A stretch of 22,301 nucleotides of DNA, taken from a virus. Positions 5,130 to 21,746 of this stretch are shown piece by piece. The notes below the pieces were generated by a model. It was not told the origin of the DNA and did not search any database. It worked only from the letters and a program-made list of their open reading frames with translations. Location: IMG/VR virus record IMGVR_UViG_3300009082_000065, positions 1 to 22,301 of that record; one strand, 5' to 3'. Numbering within the stretch: position 1 is the stretch's first letter; every line of letters begins with the position of its first letter. Made by a program: the position numbers and the translations under genes.

Positions 5130-5789
5130 ATGCTAGATAAATCCGATTACCAAATAATTGCCAAATATAAAAAACGATATCGGGCAAGCTGCAACCTATG
5201 TGGCATCGCCCGCGGCTATTTAACTGAAGATGGCAGCGGCTTATGTTATTCTTGCGCTATCACTAAACGCAATATAGGACATGGCTTCGCCGCCATAGAC
5301 GATAAGATCAATGATGGTGAGCAAACCAAATATCGGGCATATTGCTCTACGTGTGGGAAAGATAGAGGTTATGTTCGCAGTAGGAATATTGGTAAGTCTT
5401 GTGCTTCCTGCGCAGCATCGATACGCAACAAGAAGCGCTATAAGTCCGCCGATCCGCTGGTAATAGCTCATCGACATCTACGCCAGATAATTAAAAGTGC
5501 TATATCCCGTAAAATGCGCCTTCGGGGATCGAGTAAAAACGGTCAATCGATAACTAAAGTCTTGCCTTATTCTGTAGCTGAATTGAAGACCAGTATAGAA
5601 TCTAAGTTCCAACCAGGAATGTCATGGGATAATTATGGTGAGTGGGAAATAGATCATCGTATACCTGACTCGTGGTTCGAGTATTCTTCTGTTACGGATC
5701 CTGCATTTATTGCTAGTTGGTCATTAGCTAATTTACAACCAAAATGGAAACATCTGAACCGCCAAAAATCTAATAAGTTCGCTGATTGA
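5130..5789 (+). CDS. HNH homing endonuclease with duplicated zinc-ribbon module
   Basis: A 219-residue free-standing HNH endonuclease. Residues 15-45 and 67-97 are two copies of the same module, [K/R]YRA-x-C-x2-CG-x2-RGY followed by a second C-x2-C (C21/C24/C39/C42 and C72/C75/C91/C94), probably zinc-binding DNA contacts. The C-terminal nuclease shows ESKFQPGMSWDNYG (157-170), EWEIDHRIP with D175-H176, SLANLQPKW with N201, and N210-x2-K213, so all expected catalytic positions are present. It is closely related to the HNH proteins at 2412, 5868 and 21108. The ATG at 5130 is 6 bases after AGGAG, which lies in a hairpin that also contains a promoter. The gene sits between portal and kinase genes and looks like a mobile insertion rather than part of the head pathway. 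Confidence 0.88.
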   Translation: MLDKSDYQIIAKYKKRYRASCNLCGIARGYLTEDGSGLCYSCAITKRNIGHGFAAIDDKINDGEQTKYRAYCSTCGKDRGYVRSRNIGKSCASCAASIRNKKRYKSADPLVIAHRHLRQIIKSAISRKMRLRGSSKNGQSITKVLPYSVAELKTSIESKFQPGMSWDNYGEWEIDHRIPDSWFEYSSVTDPAFIASWSLANLQPKWKHLNRQKSNKFAD

Positions 5790-5817: not shown

Positions 5818-5850
5818 AACCCGCAGGTACAATATTGTTGCGGGTTTTAT
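5818..5850 (+). terminator. Intrinsic terminator-like hairpin, with a -10-like sequence in the loop
   Basis: AACCCGCA (5818-5825) pairs with TGCGGGTT (5839-5846) and is followed by TT and a short mixed tail, a plausible Rho-independent terminator for the HNH gene ending at 5789. The loop holds GGTACAATA (5826-5834), resembling the GGTATAATA promoter motif seen at other gene starts, so the element may both stop upstream transcription and start the next gene. The T run is short (TTTT), so termination may be partial. Confidence 0.55.
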
Positions 5851-5867
5851 CAATTATTAGGATAATT

Positions 5868-6608
5868 ATGATAGATGAAAATGATTATATAATCAAGCAC
5901 TATTATTCAAGGTTAGGTAGACATAAACCGAAGAGATGGGTAATGCATTATTGTGATAATTGTGGATGCAAAAGGTCTTATGCTCCAAGAAAGCAATCTT
6001 GTTTTTGCCGATCATGCGCTTGTATTGGTAGGATTATTTCGCAAAAGCAAAAAGAATCTATAAGTAAGGCACTTATAGGTAATAAAAACCATCTTGGGAA
6101 TACACCTGAGTCCAGATTGTCAGCAGCTGTGAAATCATGCAAAACTAAAAGATGCGCAACAGCAGAGAAACGTTTGGAATATAGCATAAATGCTGGTGCC
6201 GGTAAAATGGGTTTGTCAGTAGAAGAATATTTAAAAATTAAAGATGAAATAGCAATTAAGCGTAAGATTGCACACAACATGCGGTCGCAAATAGGTAATT
6301 TGATTCGTGGTAAGGTTGGCAAGTTGAGATATGTTGATTGGTCTATGGATGAACTTAAGCAACACCTTGAGTCTTTGTGGCAACCAGATATGAATTGGGA
6401 TAATTATGGTAGAAAAAAGAGTGTACGATGTTGGGAGATTGATCATGTTATTCCTATTAGAGCTAAAAAGGAAGATGGATCATATATATTTACAAATATT
6501 GGTGATCCAATGTCTGATGATTTTAAGCAATGTTTTAAATTAAGTAATTTACAACCACTATGGGCAGATATTAATAATTCCAAGAATAACAATTATAGGG
6601 GAATATAA
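5868..6608 (+). CDS. HNH homing endonuclease
   Basis: A 246-residue protein. The ATG at 5868 is chosen because AGGAT (5859-5863) lies 4 bases upstream and the N-terminus MIDENDY matches the MLDKSDY start of the HNH protein at 5130. An in-frame TTG at 5835 would start inside the terminator hairpin and is rejected. An N-terminal Cys cluster (C29, C32, C45, C47, C50) forms the shared zinc ribbon. Residues 55-95 contain NUMOD3-like motifs. The HNH block shows ESLWQPDMNWDNYG, CWEIDHVIP with H193, LSNLQPLW with N227, and N236-x2-K239, so it looks catalytically intact. The last codons contain AGGGGA (6597-6602), which serves as ribosome binding site for the kinase gene whose GTG start follows the stop directly. 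Confidence 0.87.
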   Translation: MIDENDYIIKHYYSRLGRHKPKRWVMHYCDNCGCKRSYAPRKQSCFCRSCACIGRIISQKQKESISKALIGNKNHLGNTPESRLSAAVKSCKTKRCATAEKRLEYSINAGAGKMGLSVEEYLKIKDEIAIKRKIAHNMRSQIGNLIRGKVGKLRYVDWSMDELKQHLESLWQPDMNWDNYGRKKSVRCWEIDHVIPIRAKKEDGSYIFTNIGDPMSDDFKQCFKLSNLQPLWADINNSKNNNYRGI

Positions 6609-7433
6609 GTGTTTATTATCATTGAAGGAATCGATCGAAGTGGCAAGTCCACTGTTTCTGATTACTATAAAAAACAAGGTTATGAATACATTCATTTCTC
6701 GGCTCCAGATAAAAAATATTCATCGCCAGGGTATGCAGGACCTTCGTATTTGGACGAGATTATTGAAATTTTAATGAATTGCGATGGAAAAAATGTAGTA
6801 TTCGATCGCTCATGGTTTGGTGAATTATTGTGGTCGCAGGTTTACGGTAGACAGCCGCAACTTTCAGAAGATGATATAGATGTTATCCGTGAGTATGAAG
6901 AGCACAATCAAGCCCAGCGGATCCTGATGGTCGATCTTGATGTTGAAGCTCATTGGCAACGCTGCGTAGCTAATAAAGAACCGATGAACCGCAGACAGTT
7001 TGAAGATGCACGTCGTCTATATTCCAAGATGGCACATACATATCAGTTTTCAATACTTTCTCTGCCGGAGTTTATTAAGCAGAACCCTTCTACTATCGCA
7101 GAATCTATGCCTATTATTAAAACAGATACCTTGGCACCTAGTGTAGAGGTACCTCAGACCTCTAGTCGTAATATGTCACCAGAACAAGCAACTTTAGAAA
7201 AAGCTAACGCAATAAATACTATTTTAAAAAGTAAAAGATTGTTTAAACAACAGGGTTGGCCATATGATGATTTGGAGAATCAAGTCCGCATCTTTTTAAA
7301 CGATAGATTAGGTGATTTGCTAGGTAGATCAAAAGATAACGGTATATTGTCTAAAGAAGATATTTTAATTGTTAAAGAGTTTGTTAAGAGATTAAGAGAT
7401 AAAGGAGTTAAGGTAAATGAGCAAAAGTCGTAA
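6609..7433 (+). CDS. Deoxynucleotide/thymidylate kinase-like protein with an unknown C-terminal domain
   Basis: A 274-residue protein starting at GTG 6609, directly after the TAA of the HNH gene and 6 bases after AGGGGA. The N-terminus FIIIEGIDRSGKST is a Walker A loop of thymidylate/deoxynucleoside kinase type (GIDRSGKS, residues 7-14). FDRSW (65-69) resembles the DR motif that positions the nucleotide base. The kinase fold covers about residues 1-165. The rest (about 190-274) is a predicted helical, charged domain I do not recognise. A second, more canonical thymidylate kinase is encoded at 14872, so this one may use another dNMP or a non-nucleotide substrate. The next gene overlaps its 3' end by 17 bases, which suggests translational coupling. 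Confidence 0.7.
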   Translation: MFIIIEGIDRSGKSTVSDYYKKQGYEYIHFSAPDKKYSSPGYAGPSYLDEIIEILMNCDGKNVVFDRSWFGELLWSQVYGRQPQLSEDDIDVIREYEEHNQAQRILMVDLDVEAHWQRCVANKEPMNRRQFEDARRLYSKMAHTYQFSILSLPEFIKQNPSTIAESMPIIKTDTLAPSVEVPQTSSRNMSPEQATLEKANAINTILKSKRLFKQQGWPYDDLENQVRIFLNDRLGDLLGRSKDNGILSKEDILIVKEFVKRLRDKGVKVNEQKS

Positions 7434-9279: not shown

Positions 9280-9948
9280 ATGTATATATATAAGATAGAA
9301 AATTTAATAACCGGTAAACGCTATATAGGACAGACAAAACGAAGTCTAGATGAGCGATGGAATGAACATATACGGGCATCTCGTAATAGTAACAGTTATT
9401 TATATAAAGCTATGCGCAAGTATGGAGTAGGAAACTTTATAATAAGGTCGATCGTTCGCTGTTCTTCAATAGACGAATTGAATTCAAGAGAAAAATCACT
9501 TATACGTATATATAATACGATGTTGCCGAATGGTTATAATATGATGACGGGCGGTAATAAAAATACGATGTCACCTGTAATCATCGAAAAGATAAGACAA
9601 TCTTTGATCGGTAGACATAATACTTATTGGTTAGGTAAAAAACTACCTGATGAGGTTAAACATAAGATATCTCAAACCAAACTATATAAACGACAATCAT
9701 GCGGCGCCACTAATCCTATGTATGGTAAAACTCATACTATAGAAAGTATAAGAAAAAATTGTTTATCTAATGGTGGAGGCCGTTATTTTGAAGTAATTAT
9801 TAGTGGAATAGGTATAAGGGTTGGAATATGGGATAATAAGAAGAAGTGTTCTCGTGATTTAGGTATAAGCCGAGAATGCATTAGAGGTGCTCTCAATGGA
9901 CGACTTAAAACTATACATGGTTATATTATAAGATATTGCACGGAGTAG
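9280..9948 (+). CDS. GIY-YIG homing endonuclease
   Basis: A 222-residue free-standing endonuclease. Its N-terminus begins Y2-I-Y4 and continues to R14-Y-I-G17, the GIY-YIG signature. R27 and E71 fall where the catalytic Arg and metal-binding Glu are expected (compare T4 I-TevI), and NGYNMMTGG ends the nuclease domain near residue 92. Two NUMOD3-type DNA-binding motifs follow (GKKLPDEVKHKIS, 119-131, and NPMYGKTHTIESIRK, 145-159). A C-terminal helix-turn-helix of IENR1/NUMOD1 type (CSRDLGISRECIRGALNG) lies around 190-207. All domains look intact. There is no clear ribosome binding site, and the adjacent promoter suggests leaderless or weak translation. The final codons and stop (ACG GAG TAG) contain the GGAG that precedes the maturation protease gene. 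Confidence 0.9.
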   Translation: MYIYKIENLITGKRYIGQTKRSLDERWNEHIRASRNSNSYLYKAMRKYGVGNFIIRSIVRCSSIDELNSREKSLIRIYNTMLPNGYNMMTGGNKNTMSPVIIEKIRQSLIGRHNTYWLGKKLPDEVKHKISQTKLYKRQSCGATNPMYGKTHTIESIRKNCLSNGGGRYFEVIISGIGIRVGIWDNKKKCSRDLGISRECIRGALNGRLKTIHGYIIRYCTE

Positions 9949-13565: not shown

Positions 13566-13594
13566 AAAGGCACCATGTAAATGGTGCCTTTTTT
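13566..13594 (+). terminator. Strong intrinsic terminator after the capsid gene
   Basis: GGCACCAT (13569-13576) pairs perfectly with ATGGTGCC (13581-13588) around a GTAA tetraloop, with A-T pairs extending the stem on both sides and a T run (13589-13594). It ends the capsid operon and insulates the following endonuclease gene. Confidence 0.93.
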
Positions 13595-13601
13595 ATTTAC
13601 G

Positions 13602-13608
13602 GTATAAT
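13602..13608 (+). promoter_or_regulatory. Candidate -10 promoter element (GTATAAT) for the HNH-kinase gene
   Basis: GGTATAATAT begins 13 bases after the capsid terminator stem. The gene's ribosome binding site TGAGGAT (13623-13629) and ATG (13635) follow at suitable distance. No -35 consensus is visible; the upstream bases are terminator. Confidence 0.55.
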
Positions 13609-13634
13609 ATCTATTGAATTAATGAGGATTTTTT

Positions 13635-14804
13635 ATGTTCAATAGAGTTAGAACATCGCAAGTTTTTGGTTACGATATTGATCCAGAAGTTCGTCGCAGA
13701 ACTAAAGATGATATTTTGACTAGCGGTAGTAAAAATAAGAAAGAACTAATAGTAGTAGATAATTGTCCTATTTGTGGTATAGAGCGACAGATTAAATATA
13801 GAGCTTCGCTTAAAAATCGCCCCTGTTCAAAGTGTTTCCATAATTCACTTGAGATGCTTGCCATCAAGAAAGCCCAAAAGGGTAAAATTGTATCAGAGGA
13901 ATCTAAACAGAAGATGAAAGACAATCATTGGTCTAAGCATGGTTATATTTCTGGCTTCAAAGGACAACATCATAAAGATGAAACCAAGGAAAAGTTACGT
14001 AATGCGTATTTTTCACAATTTCAGCAATATGACGAATCCACTATAAAAGAATTTTATGAACAGGCTTCTTGTACTGTGCGTAATATTGATAGATCGGAGT
14101 TTGCTGGGTTTGTGTCTCCTGAAAATACTAGGATACGACAATCTCCCGAGGGTAAAGCTTGGTCTTATGATGTATTGGCTAAATCTAACTTTACATGTAT
14201 AAAATGCGGTGAACGAGGTGGTTCATTGCGGGCTCATCATTTAAACGCTTTTGCTTCTTATCCGGAACAGCGTTTTGATATAGAGAATGGTGTTTGTTTG
14301 TGCGGAGATTGCCATGATAAGTTTCATACTTTGTATGGTAAAGGAAACAATACCAAAGAGCAGTTCGACGAATGGTTATCTAAATCACAAATAGAAAACA
14401 CCAATTTAAAAACTATTTATATGCTTTGTGGCGCTTCAGGTTCAGGCAAGTCATGGGTAGCTAAACAACTGCTGGATAAATTTCAGTATGTTTCCTTTGA
14501 TGATACGCCTAAGAAAGACCATTTAAATTTACTGCACGCCTGTAATACAGATAAACCTATACTTTATGACCCTACGATCAAGATATCGACATTTATTAAG
14601 CGACACTCTAGCGAGTTTAATATCATCCCTGTTTTTATCATAGAAAGCGAAGATGTAATTAAAGAGCGTATAGCAAAACGCGGTGGTAAATGGACAGAAC
14701 ACATCCCCAAGCGCATGAAAGTAATGGAAGCACGTAATATTAAGTATGGTGTATTTTCGGGTACTGCTGTGGAAGTATTGGATTGGCTTAAAAACAACAT
14801 CTAA
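13635..14804 (+). CDS. HNH endonuclease fused to a P-loop kinase-like domain
   Basis: A 389-residue, apparently two-part protein. Residues 40-70 are a zinc ribbon (C44, C47, C64, C67) like that of the other HNH proteins here, and 86-124 contain NUMOD3-type motifs. The HNH nuclease lies at about 175-235: structural Cys pairs C188/C191 and C223/C226, H201-H202, N218 and H227/H231. After a linker (about 250-258), residues 259-389 form a kinase-like P-loop domain with strand IYMLCGASGSGKSWVAKQL (Walker A, 266-273), VSFDD (286-290), ILYDPTI (309-315), FIIES and RIAKRGGKW. This order resembles polynucleotide kinase/AAA_33-type small-molecule kinases; the substrate is unknown. The ribosome binding site is GAGG. 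The reading frame is continuous, so the fusion is not an obvious sequencing artefact. A thymidylate kinase gene follows. Confidence 0.82.
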   Translation: MFNRVRTSQVFGYDIDPEVRRRTKDDILTSGSKNKKELIVVDNCPICGIERQIKYRASLKNRPCSKCFHNSLEMLAIKKAQKGKIVSEESKQKMKDNHWSKHGYISGFKGQHHKDETKEKLRNAYFSQFQQYDESTIKEFYEQASCTVRNIDRSEFAGFVSPENTRIRQSPEGKAWSYDVLAKSNFTCIKCGERGGSLRAHHLNAFASYPEQRFDIENGVCLCGDCHDKFHTLYGKGNNTKEQFDEWLSKSQIENTNLKTIYMLCGASGSGKSWVAKQLLDKFQYVSFDDTPKKDHLNLLHACNTDKPILYDPTIKISTFIKRHSSEFNIIPVFIIESEDVIKERIAKRGGKWTEHIPKRMKVMEARNIKYGVFSGTAVEVLDWLKNNI

Positions 14805-14849: not shown

Positions 14850-14871
14850 AAACATTTGTGAAAGGTTTATG

Positions 14872-15519
14872 ATGACTGCTCGATTTATAGTAATGGAAGG
14901 AACGGAGGGGGTTGGTAAGACTTCTCAATGCGAATTACTGGTTAAACATCTTAGAGATAGAGGATATAAAGTTCTTCAAAGCAAAGAACCAGGAACACCT
15001 GCCCTACCGATCACTATGGCGCTGCGCAATCTTATGCTTGATGCTCGATATAATGATGAGTTGACTATTATAGCACGAGAATTAATTAGTCAGACTATAC
15101 GCTCTATTCACATGGAGAAACTGATTATTCCTGCATTAGATGGTGTAGGCGAATATGATTTCATAATACAAGATCGAGGTATAGTATCTGGTTTAGCATA
15201 CGGTGCCGCGTGCGGAAATAATCCAGCATGGTTGAAAGATATGGCACTTAAAGTATCTAAGGCAAAAAATCTATATAATATATATAGCGATGTTGTATTT
15301 TTAAGAGGCAACGTTTCAGATGGTTTAAATCGTGCTGTAGCTTGTAAACAAGAATTTGAAGCCGGTGATGCGATGGAAGCTAAAGGCGATTCTTTTATGC
15401 GGTCTGTAGAATATAATATGATGTCGCTATCATTAGATTTTCCGATGAGATTTATAGACATAGATGGATTGTCAATTCAAGACGTTCATGAGCAGATACT
15501 TAAAGTTCTCGGCTTATAA
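14872..15519 (+). CDS. tmk: Thymidylate kinase
   Basis: A 215-residue protein, dTMP + ATP to dTDP + ADP in pyrimidine nucleotide synthesis. The ATG at 14872 has better spacing (6 bases) from AAAGG than the adjacent in-frame ATG at 14869 (3 bases); both are possible. The P-loop GTEGVGKT is at residues 10-17, KEPGTP at 38-43, and QDRGIVSGLAYG at 100-111, matching the dTMP kinase DR-x3-S-x2-AY motif. A lid-like segment (D166-x2-E169 ... FMRSVEYNM) fits the family's end region. Length is normal. It lies between the HNH-kinase fusion and the phosphoesterase, inside a structural cluster rather than a nucleotide-metabolism block. A gap of 12 bases separates it from the next gene. Confidence 0.85.
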   Translation: MTARFIVMEGTEGVGKTSQCELLVKHLRDRGYKVLQSKEPGTPALPITMALRNLMLDARYNDELTIIARELISQTIRSIHMEKLIIPALDGVGEYDFIIQDRGIVSGLAYGAACGNNPAWLKDMALKVSKAKNLYNIYSDVVFLRGNVSDGLNRAVACKQEFEAGDAMEAKGDSFMRSVEYNMMSLSLDFPMRFIDIDGLSIQDVHEQILKVLGL

Positions 15520-21082: not shown

Positions 21083-21109
21083 ATAATATCAGTATAATAA
21101 CAGTATTAT
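21083..21109 (+). promoter_or_regulatory. GTATAAT promoter with weak stem over the start codon
   Basis: GTATAAT (21092-21098) is preceded by ATATCA exactly as at 8337-8349. ATAATA (21083-21088) can pair with TATTAT (21104-21109), covering the start codon at 21108-21110. A start 6-7 bases after the -10 leaves about 3 bases of leader. No Shine-Dalgarno sequence precedes this gene. The stem is AT-only and weak. Confidence 0.45.
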
Positions 21110-21746
21110 GGATAATAAAGTTTGTAAAATTTGTGGAGCAACAGAGACCAGCGGGTGGTATTCTGGTCCTATATGTCGTAAGTGCTACCGTAAGGAACAC
21201 TTCAAAAAAACATATATACCTAAACAGTTTAAAACTACAAAAAAATGTAAATTATGCGGTATAGATTTTTTAGATAATACTAGTAATCAAATGGCGTTGT
21301 ATTGTTGTACAGAACATATGCAAACTGCCAATAGCCAAGATCCTGATAAACAAGCTATAAAGAGACAATACGATATAGATCATAGAGAAAATAAGCGACG
21401 ACACAATGCCGCTTATTTCAGACGTAGATTGGAAACTGATATTTTATTTAGACTTTCATGTAGTTTACGATCACGGTTAGTTCATGCTATCAAAAACAAT
21501 CAGAAATCAGGTTCCGCCGTTAGAGATCTAGGATGTTCTATAGAAGAATTAAAATCATATTTGGAATCTAAGTTTCAACCTGGCATGACCTGGGAAAACT
21601 ACGGATTATACGGTTGGCATATAGATCACATTCAACCACTCTCTAAGTTCGATCTAGGTAATCCTGAGCAATTTAAAGTTGCATGTCACTATACCAACTT
21701 ACAACCACTTTGGGCAGAAGAAAACCTTAAGAAAGGTAGCAGATAA
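21108..21746 (+). CDS. HNH homing endonuclease
   Basis: A 212-residue protein with two N-terminal Cys clusters (C6/C9/C23/C26 and C47/C50/C66/C67 with H70), a basic helical middle (80-130) and a complete HNH block: LESKFQPGMTWENYG (152-166), WHIDHIQP with H174, YTNLQPLW with N197, and EENLKK. It shares a 19-base identical stretch with the HNH gene at 2412 and is the best visible relative of the remnant at 3000. There is no ribosome binding site; a GTATAAT promoter sits 9 bases before ATG. Its last codons contain GAAAGG (21731-21736), the likely ribosome binding site of the next gene, and its stop overlaps that gene's start as TAATG. Confidence 0.9.
   Translation: MDNKVCKICGATETSGWYSGPICRKCYRKEHFKKTYIPKQFKTTKKCKLCGIDFLDNTSNQMALYCCTEHMQTANSQDPDKQAIKRQYDIDHRENKRRHNAAYFRRRLETDILFRLSCSLRSRLVHAIKNNQKSGSAVRDLGCSIEELKSYLESKFQPGMTWENYGLYGWHIDHIQPLSKFDLGNPEQFKVACHYTNLQPLWAEENLKKGSR

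Follow-up and report, generated by a model that had tools for sequence, protein, structure and literature searches.

The gene at positions 13635 to 14804 joins a predicted homing endonuclease to a kinase-like domain, which raises the question whether the kinase benefits the phage, the mobile element or the homing step itself. It lies in a viral contig of 22,301 bases, called the window here, whose capsid protein is distantly related (about 30%) to the capsids of SPO1-like phages. The gene has an ATG start and runs for 389 aa in a single frame without an internal stop, as expected from the original prediction of one continuous frame for an HNH nuclease and a P-loop domain. Its parts are as follows.

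13635..14804, + strand: fusion gene, predicted HNH homing endonuclease with a C-terminal P-loop kinase-like domain, 389 aa
13635..14390, + strand: nuclease half, residues 1-252, with zinc ribbon C44/C47/C64/C67, NUMOD3-like stretch and Cys4-type HNH C188...H231
14391..14408, + strand: linker, residues 253-258, with low model confidence at 252-256
14409..14801, + strand: P-loop kinase-like domain, residues 259-389, about 130 aa

The nuclease half resembles the free-standing phage HNH homing endonucleases (phrog_119/phrog_144) in its HNH, zinc ribbon and NUMOD3-like stretch, and also in its intergenic insertion beside a capsid gene. Residues 188-231 match the Pfam families HNH (18.3 bits) and HNH_2, both slightly below the cut-off, as well as several PHROG HNH families, the best at 2.8e-10. 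The HNH motif is present, with His201/His202, Asn218, His227 and His231 invariant in 8 relatives, and a weak NUMOD3 match covers residues 83-122. The 'HNH homing endonuclease III' of Bacillus phage Staley shares 46% identity with the window protein over 87 aa, but no match in the isolate-phage collection reaches over the kinase tail. The tail itself is absent from the isolate phages of the INPHARED set at the sensitivity of tblastn. The domain boundary falls in a linker of approximately residues 253-258, and the kinase-like domain proper starts at about residue 259. In the full-length model (pTM 0.40) the linker is poorly defined at residues 252-256 and the two halves have no trusted placement.

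Is the C-terminal domain a kinase? Three conserved features bear on this.

14430..14453, + strand: Walker A GASGSGKS, residues 266-273; Lys272 is kept in 31 of 32 nuclease-linked copies
14499..14501, + strand: Asp289 (FDD), invariant; hhalign pairs the region with the Asp35 region of T4 Pnk
14679..14681, + strand: lid-type Arg349 (R349-G-G), invariant in all 38 copies

The kinase likeness proposed earlier holds for the fold, which is predicted with high confidence. An AlphaFold2 model of the tail, based on 19 relatives, reaches pLDDT 91.9 and pTM 0.85, and Foldseek matches it to gluconokinases, guanylate, adenylate and dephospho-CoA kinases of the PDB (E from 1.6e-5, TM by query about 0.5-0.7) and to adenylate, guanylate and thymidylate kinases among viral structures. 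The suggested closeness to T4 polynucleotide kinase did not hold up. E. coli gluconate kinase GntK shares the fold, Walker A and lid arginine and aligns over 97 columns (hhalign E 3.5e-9), whereas the T4 enzyme, PseT, aligns over 33 columns that cover Walker A and the Asp35 region (E 1.6e-5), with nothing aligned past T4 residue 37. The tail also has no counterpart of the phosphatase domain of PseT, and no Pnk is found within the top 50 PDB folds. E. coli Gmk aligns over a 38-column lid region. The two thymidylate-kinase-like genes of the window (6609-7433 and 14869-15519) encode P-loop kinases like the tail, but the product of the second aligns with it at the P-loop alone (23 columns, probability 6%).

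All 32 nuclease-linked copies have G266, D289 and R349, 31 have K272, 29 have D312 and 28 have R360; the YDPT strand of the window protein starts at residue 311. The kinase fold, the Walker A lysine and the lid arginine together are those of P-loop small-molecule or nucleotide kinases, and from the conserved residues and the predicted fold we infer an active ATP-dependent phosphotransferase. The tail alone exceeds the Pfam guanylate-kinase cut-off (26.4 against 25.2 bits) with a match that spans the lid part only, and this model matches 4 of 19 relatives of the domain; the tail lacks the GMP-binding segment and does not belong to the guanylate kinases. Gluconate and NMP kinases have 175-207 aa, whereas the tail has about 130, and it differs from them in its acceptor-binding segment, which takes only about 20 residues from the conserved Asp to the YDPT strand. 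This is short for a nucleotide kinase, and the acceptor site would therefore be unlike that of nucleotide kinases.

HNH plus P-loop fusions were also to be looked for in other phage contigs, and we found 30 further distinct nuclease-kinase fusions of the domain. For this reason the joint is neither chance nor misassembly. The probability that the assembly joined two genes is negligible, given 31 distinct fusions across different contigs, including close copies that recur on several of them (L130-L133).

Altogether 38 distinct proteins in viral contigs carry the kinase-like domain: 31 are fused to a nuclease, one is adjacent to a nuclease and six are alone (L137-L139, L166, L168, L169). The fusions involve four unrelated kinds of nuclease, namely two HNH classes, GIY-YIG and PD-(D/E)XK/Vsr-like, where the partner type was set by motif for members without a Pfam/PHROGs scan. 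Seven proteins have the HNH type of the window (HNH-a) and ten a second HNH type (HNH-b) with a WDNYG...IDH motif, which is endonuclease VII-like in PHROG. Eight are GIY-YIG proteins, in one of which (L112) the order is inverted and the kinase stands in front, and six combine helix-turn-helix repeats with a PD-(D/E)XK domain (PD-ExK), L033 being above the Pfam Phage_endo_I cut-off. The adjacent case, L074, has an unfused kinase with its own ATG about 14 nt behind the ORF of a phrog_3339 homing endonuclease, a fifth type. A further HNH-b fusion, L177 on the L142 contig, comes in addition to the 38.

Scanning viral contigs with the tail as a single protein gave no relatives; they surfaced only through the neighbourhood of the capsid gene and through subfamily profiles. 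Via the capsid gene 80 loci were gathered, about 20 of which encode the tail, and profile scans supplied further ones. The tail alignment (A3) exceeded the divergence that the pattern scanner can handle and was divided into subfamilies. A scan for DNA patterns with an HNH end and a P-loop at similar spacing gave four matches, all of them chance. The sole match in a bacterial genome, L142, comes from a contig in a Flavobacteriaceae MAG that itself belongs to this phage family, and a bacterial origin was rejected after 199 other genomes of the Flavobacteriaceae gave one weak partial match. We also observed one protein with two kinase tails in tandem (L136:3101-4483), the first without the Walker A lysine (GASTSW) and the second running off the contig.

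In the window the fusion gene occupies a site between two phage genes.

12088..13536, + strand: major head protein gene, upstream flank of the homing site
13566..13591, + strand: hairpin resembling an intrinsic terminator, in the gap that separates the major-capsid and fusion genes
14869..15519, + strand: thymidylate-kinase-like gene, downstream flank of the homing site

The tail is found directly 3' of the capsid gene in 17 distinct alleles. The nuclease at this site is HNH-a in the window, L054, L060 and L142, HNH-b in L012 and L057, GIY-YIG in L022, L026, L048 and L059, and PD-ExK in L015, L030, L033, L038, L046 and L056, and in L074 the unfused kinase stands there behind the phrog_3339 homing endonuclease. 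Six relatives (L013, L017, L019, L024, L025 and L079) have an empty site, with 98-180 bp from the capsid gene to the thymidylate-kinase-like gene, and the element is therefore optional, an intergenic insertion with empty alleles as is typical of homing endonucleases. L002 (59% identity) and L018 have the HNH type of the window at this site without a kinase tail, so the tail is optional too. Different nucleases thus precede similar tails at one site, and L074 has a separate kinase ORF, as would be seen if the kinase gene belonged to the phage and resided 3' of the capsid gene, with homing genes inserting and fusing in front of it. This explanation is quite improbable, since the kinase is missing from the empty sites too, a lone kinase without a nuclease was never seen among the alleles examined at the capsid-gene site, and the domain is fused at other loci as well (L026b, L033b, L086, L105-L107, L112, L177).

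One of these loci points to a second homing hotspot (9280-9948 and L177:831-1922), where L177 has HNH-b and a kinase tail just 5' of a gene whose counterpart in the window is preceded by a GIY-YIG gene without a tail. At the capsid site, relatives whose site is empty have hairpins similar to that of the window 3' of the capsid gene. At 13566-13640 and in the counterparts in L013, L015, L019, L024 and L079, a TATAAT-like box comes after the hairpin, whether the allele is occupied or empty. The hairpin and box suggest that the insert may use a promoter arrangement resembling that of the next gene.

How often have the nucleases changed? A tree of 33 tail domains requires at least 13 partner changes among the fused copies. 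Three of the four partner labels are as scattered as shuffled ones, with equally low values in 500 of 500 shuffles for HNH-a, 500 of 500 for PD-ExK and 232 of 500 for GIY. HNH-b is the only partner type that clusters on this tree, and therefore not every fusion is a recent swap. Up to and including the capsid gene, the DNA of L014 and L015 is 98.6-99.3% identical to that of L074. Unrelated nucleases follow, a fused PD-ExK in L014/L015 and the separate phrog_3339 homing endonuclease in L074, and from the very first position of the kinase domain onwards the DNA is again 95-96% identical. The original prediction took separate genes in related phages as a sign of an assembly error; L074 does show such a separation, as a natural nuclease swap and not as an error. 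Between the kinase copies of L015 and L074, dN/dS is 0.065 and 12 of 15 differences are synonymous, and in this one pair the kinase is constrained across the change of nuclease partner. The tails of L046 (PD-ExK-linked) and L142 (HNH-linked) are 80.6% identical in DNA over 391 nt.

Judged from this tree and these alignments, nuclease partners are exchanged repeatedly, often within the single site that separates the capsid gene from its downstream neighbour. On our preferred reading, selfish nuclease genes carry the tail as a swappable kinase module that is probably active. Among the ideas put forward at the outset, a kinase captured by a mobile gene fits the evidence best. We consider it an evenly balanced matter whether the window gene is a free-standing homing endonuclease with a P-loop kinase domain that serves it as an exchangeable accessory. 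For the family we lean slightly towards an active kinase module exchanged among at least four unrelated classes of homing endonuclease, with a common function other than cleavage, either as a payload or in DNA-tethered modification.

If the kinase is a payload, the nuclease half would spread the gene by cutting alleles without it, and the kinase would act in the infected cell outside the chemistry of cutting and repair, most likely in nucleotide or small-metabolite metabolism. Welded to the nuclease, it would be inherited together with it. This role is favoured because order, partner class and separation are tolerated and because HNH-only alleles and stand-alone relatives exist; we hold it tentatively, at a little under an even chance. 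A kinase tethered to DNA is possible but rather unlikely. In that case the nuclease half would bring the kinase to its target, where it would phosphorylate a 5'-OH end, a sugar or a modified base and so aid copy transfer or protect the phage copy. Such a role is consistent with the domain being nearly always joined to a DNA nuclease of whichever class: 31 of the 32 nuclease-linked copies are physically fused, which is needless for a pure payload. The acceptor region, short and without the usual nucleotide-binding insert, and a Walker A/Asp layout compatible with polynucleotide kinases also fit. However, the cuts of homing endonucleases are reported to have 5'-phosphate/3'-OH ends (PMC3943268), so that cutting does not call for a 5'-end kinase, and it is unlikely that the kinase processes the nuclease's 5' ends, as the early idea had it. 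The short alignment to T4 Pnk and its absence from the top folds, the varying order and linker (L112) and the separate protein of L074 also speak against tethering.

A hypermodified-DNA kinase was considered and rejected, as the helical domain of the 5-hmdU DNA kinase (HMUDK, PF18723) occurs in none of the 14 large relatives, which counts against tethering too. One member of alignment A3 weakly matches PF18748 at 0.004. Distant thymidylate-synthase-family proteins are found in 12 of the 14 large relatives (including L143, L144, L145 and L146) and are possibly pyrimidine hydroxymethylases; several relatives with thymidylate-synthase-like genes lack the tail.

Another explanation is that the P-loop domain does not phosphorylate anything and gates binding or oligomerisation of the nuclease by ATP. 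Its fusion to many nucleases and weak matches to several AAA/P-loop NTPase models agree with such a switch, yet it is improbable because the lid residues Arg349 and Arg360, expected for phosphotransfer, are conserved; stand-alone copies without a nuclease and HNH-only alleles without the domain also count against it. It is very unlikely that the domain is a zeta-like nucleotide-kinase toxin, an addiction device which penalises loss of the homing gene. The Pfam Zeta_toxin model does match 6 of 19 domains (best 1.1e-6), but other P-loop kinase models match equally or more often, the window protein stays under the cut-off (13.8 against 22.3 bits) and no antitoxin-like partner was noted beside the gene.

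To our knowledge, the modules common to homing endonucleases are DNA-binding parts. NUMODs, shared by HNH and GIY-YIG homing endonucleases, resemble the tail in spanning nuclease classes, but they bind DNA, whereas the tail has a kinase fold with conserved catalytic residues, is linked to nucleases of four kinds and also exists as a stand-alone protein. DNA-binding modules are known to be tethered to a variety of catalytic domains (PMC1564403, PMC3943268). Our search of the openly licensed literature found no paper on kinase-fused homing endonucleases, and the term 'P-loop' is absent from the text of a survey of the GIY-YIG superfamily (PMC1564403). The recurrence of the domain on at least four unrelated kinds of nuclease, often at one position in the genome, suggests that it is a portable accessory part of mobile nuclease genes, for which we found no described family. 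If so, an enzyme module found on HNH, GIY-YIG and PD-(D/E)XK homing enzymes, and staying put when the nuclease is exchanged, would be a common second activity of selfish nuclease genes. The persistence of homing genes after site saturation would then become testable; for a payload, the kinase would pay for the persistence of the element. The pairs L014/L015 and L074, together with the HNH-only alleles, are ready material for such comparisons.

The window probably contains further mobile elements. Five more probable homing endonuclease genes (2400-2999, 5130-5789, 5835-6608, 9280-9948 and 21108-21746) have no kinase tails; four are of the HNH-b type and one is GIY-YIG with NUMODs. With the fusion gene this makes about six such genes in the 22 kb of a structural module. 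The terminase-like ORF 43-2412 has a LAGLIDADG-like stretch at its start and then an intein-like C-terminal splice motif, ...DVDHAYWSNGFISHN before T, and the Pfam matches are below the cut-off. From the stretch and the motif the terminase gene probably carries an intein, the start of which would be lost at the window edge. The two thymidylate-kinase-like genes lie in the head-gene region and are kept in many relatives, and they are unusual neighbours for structural genes.
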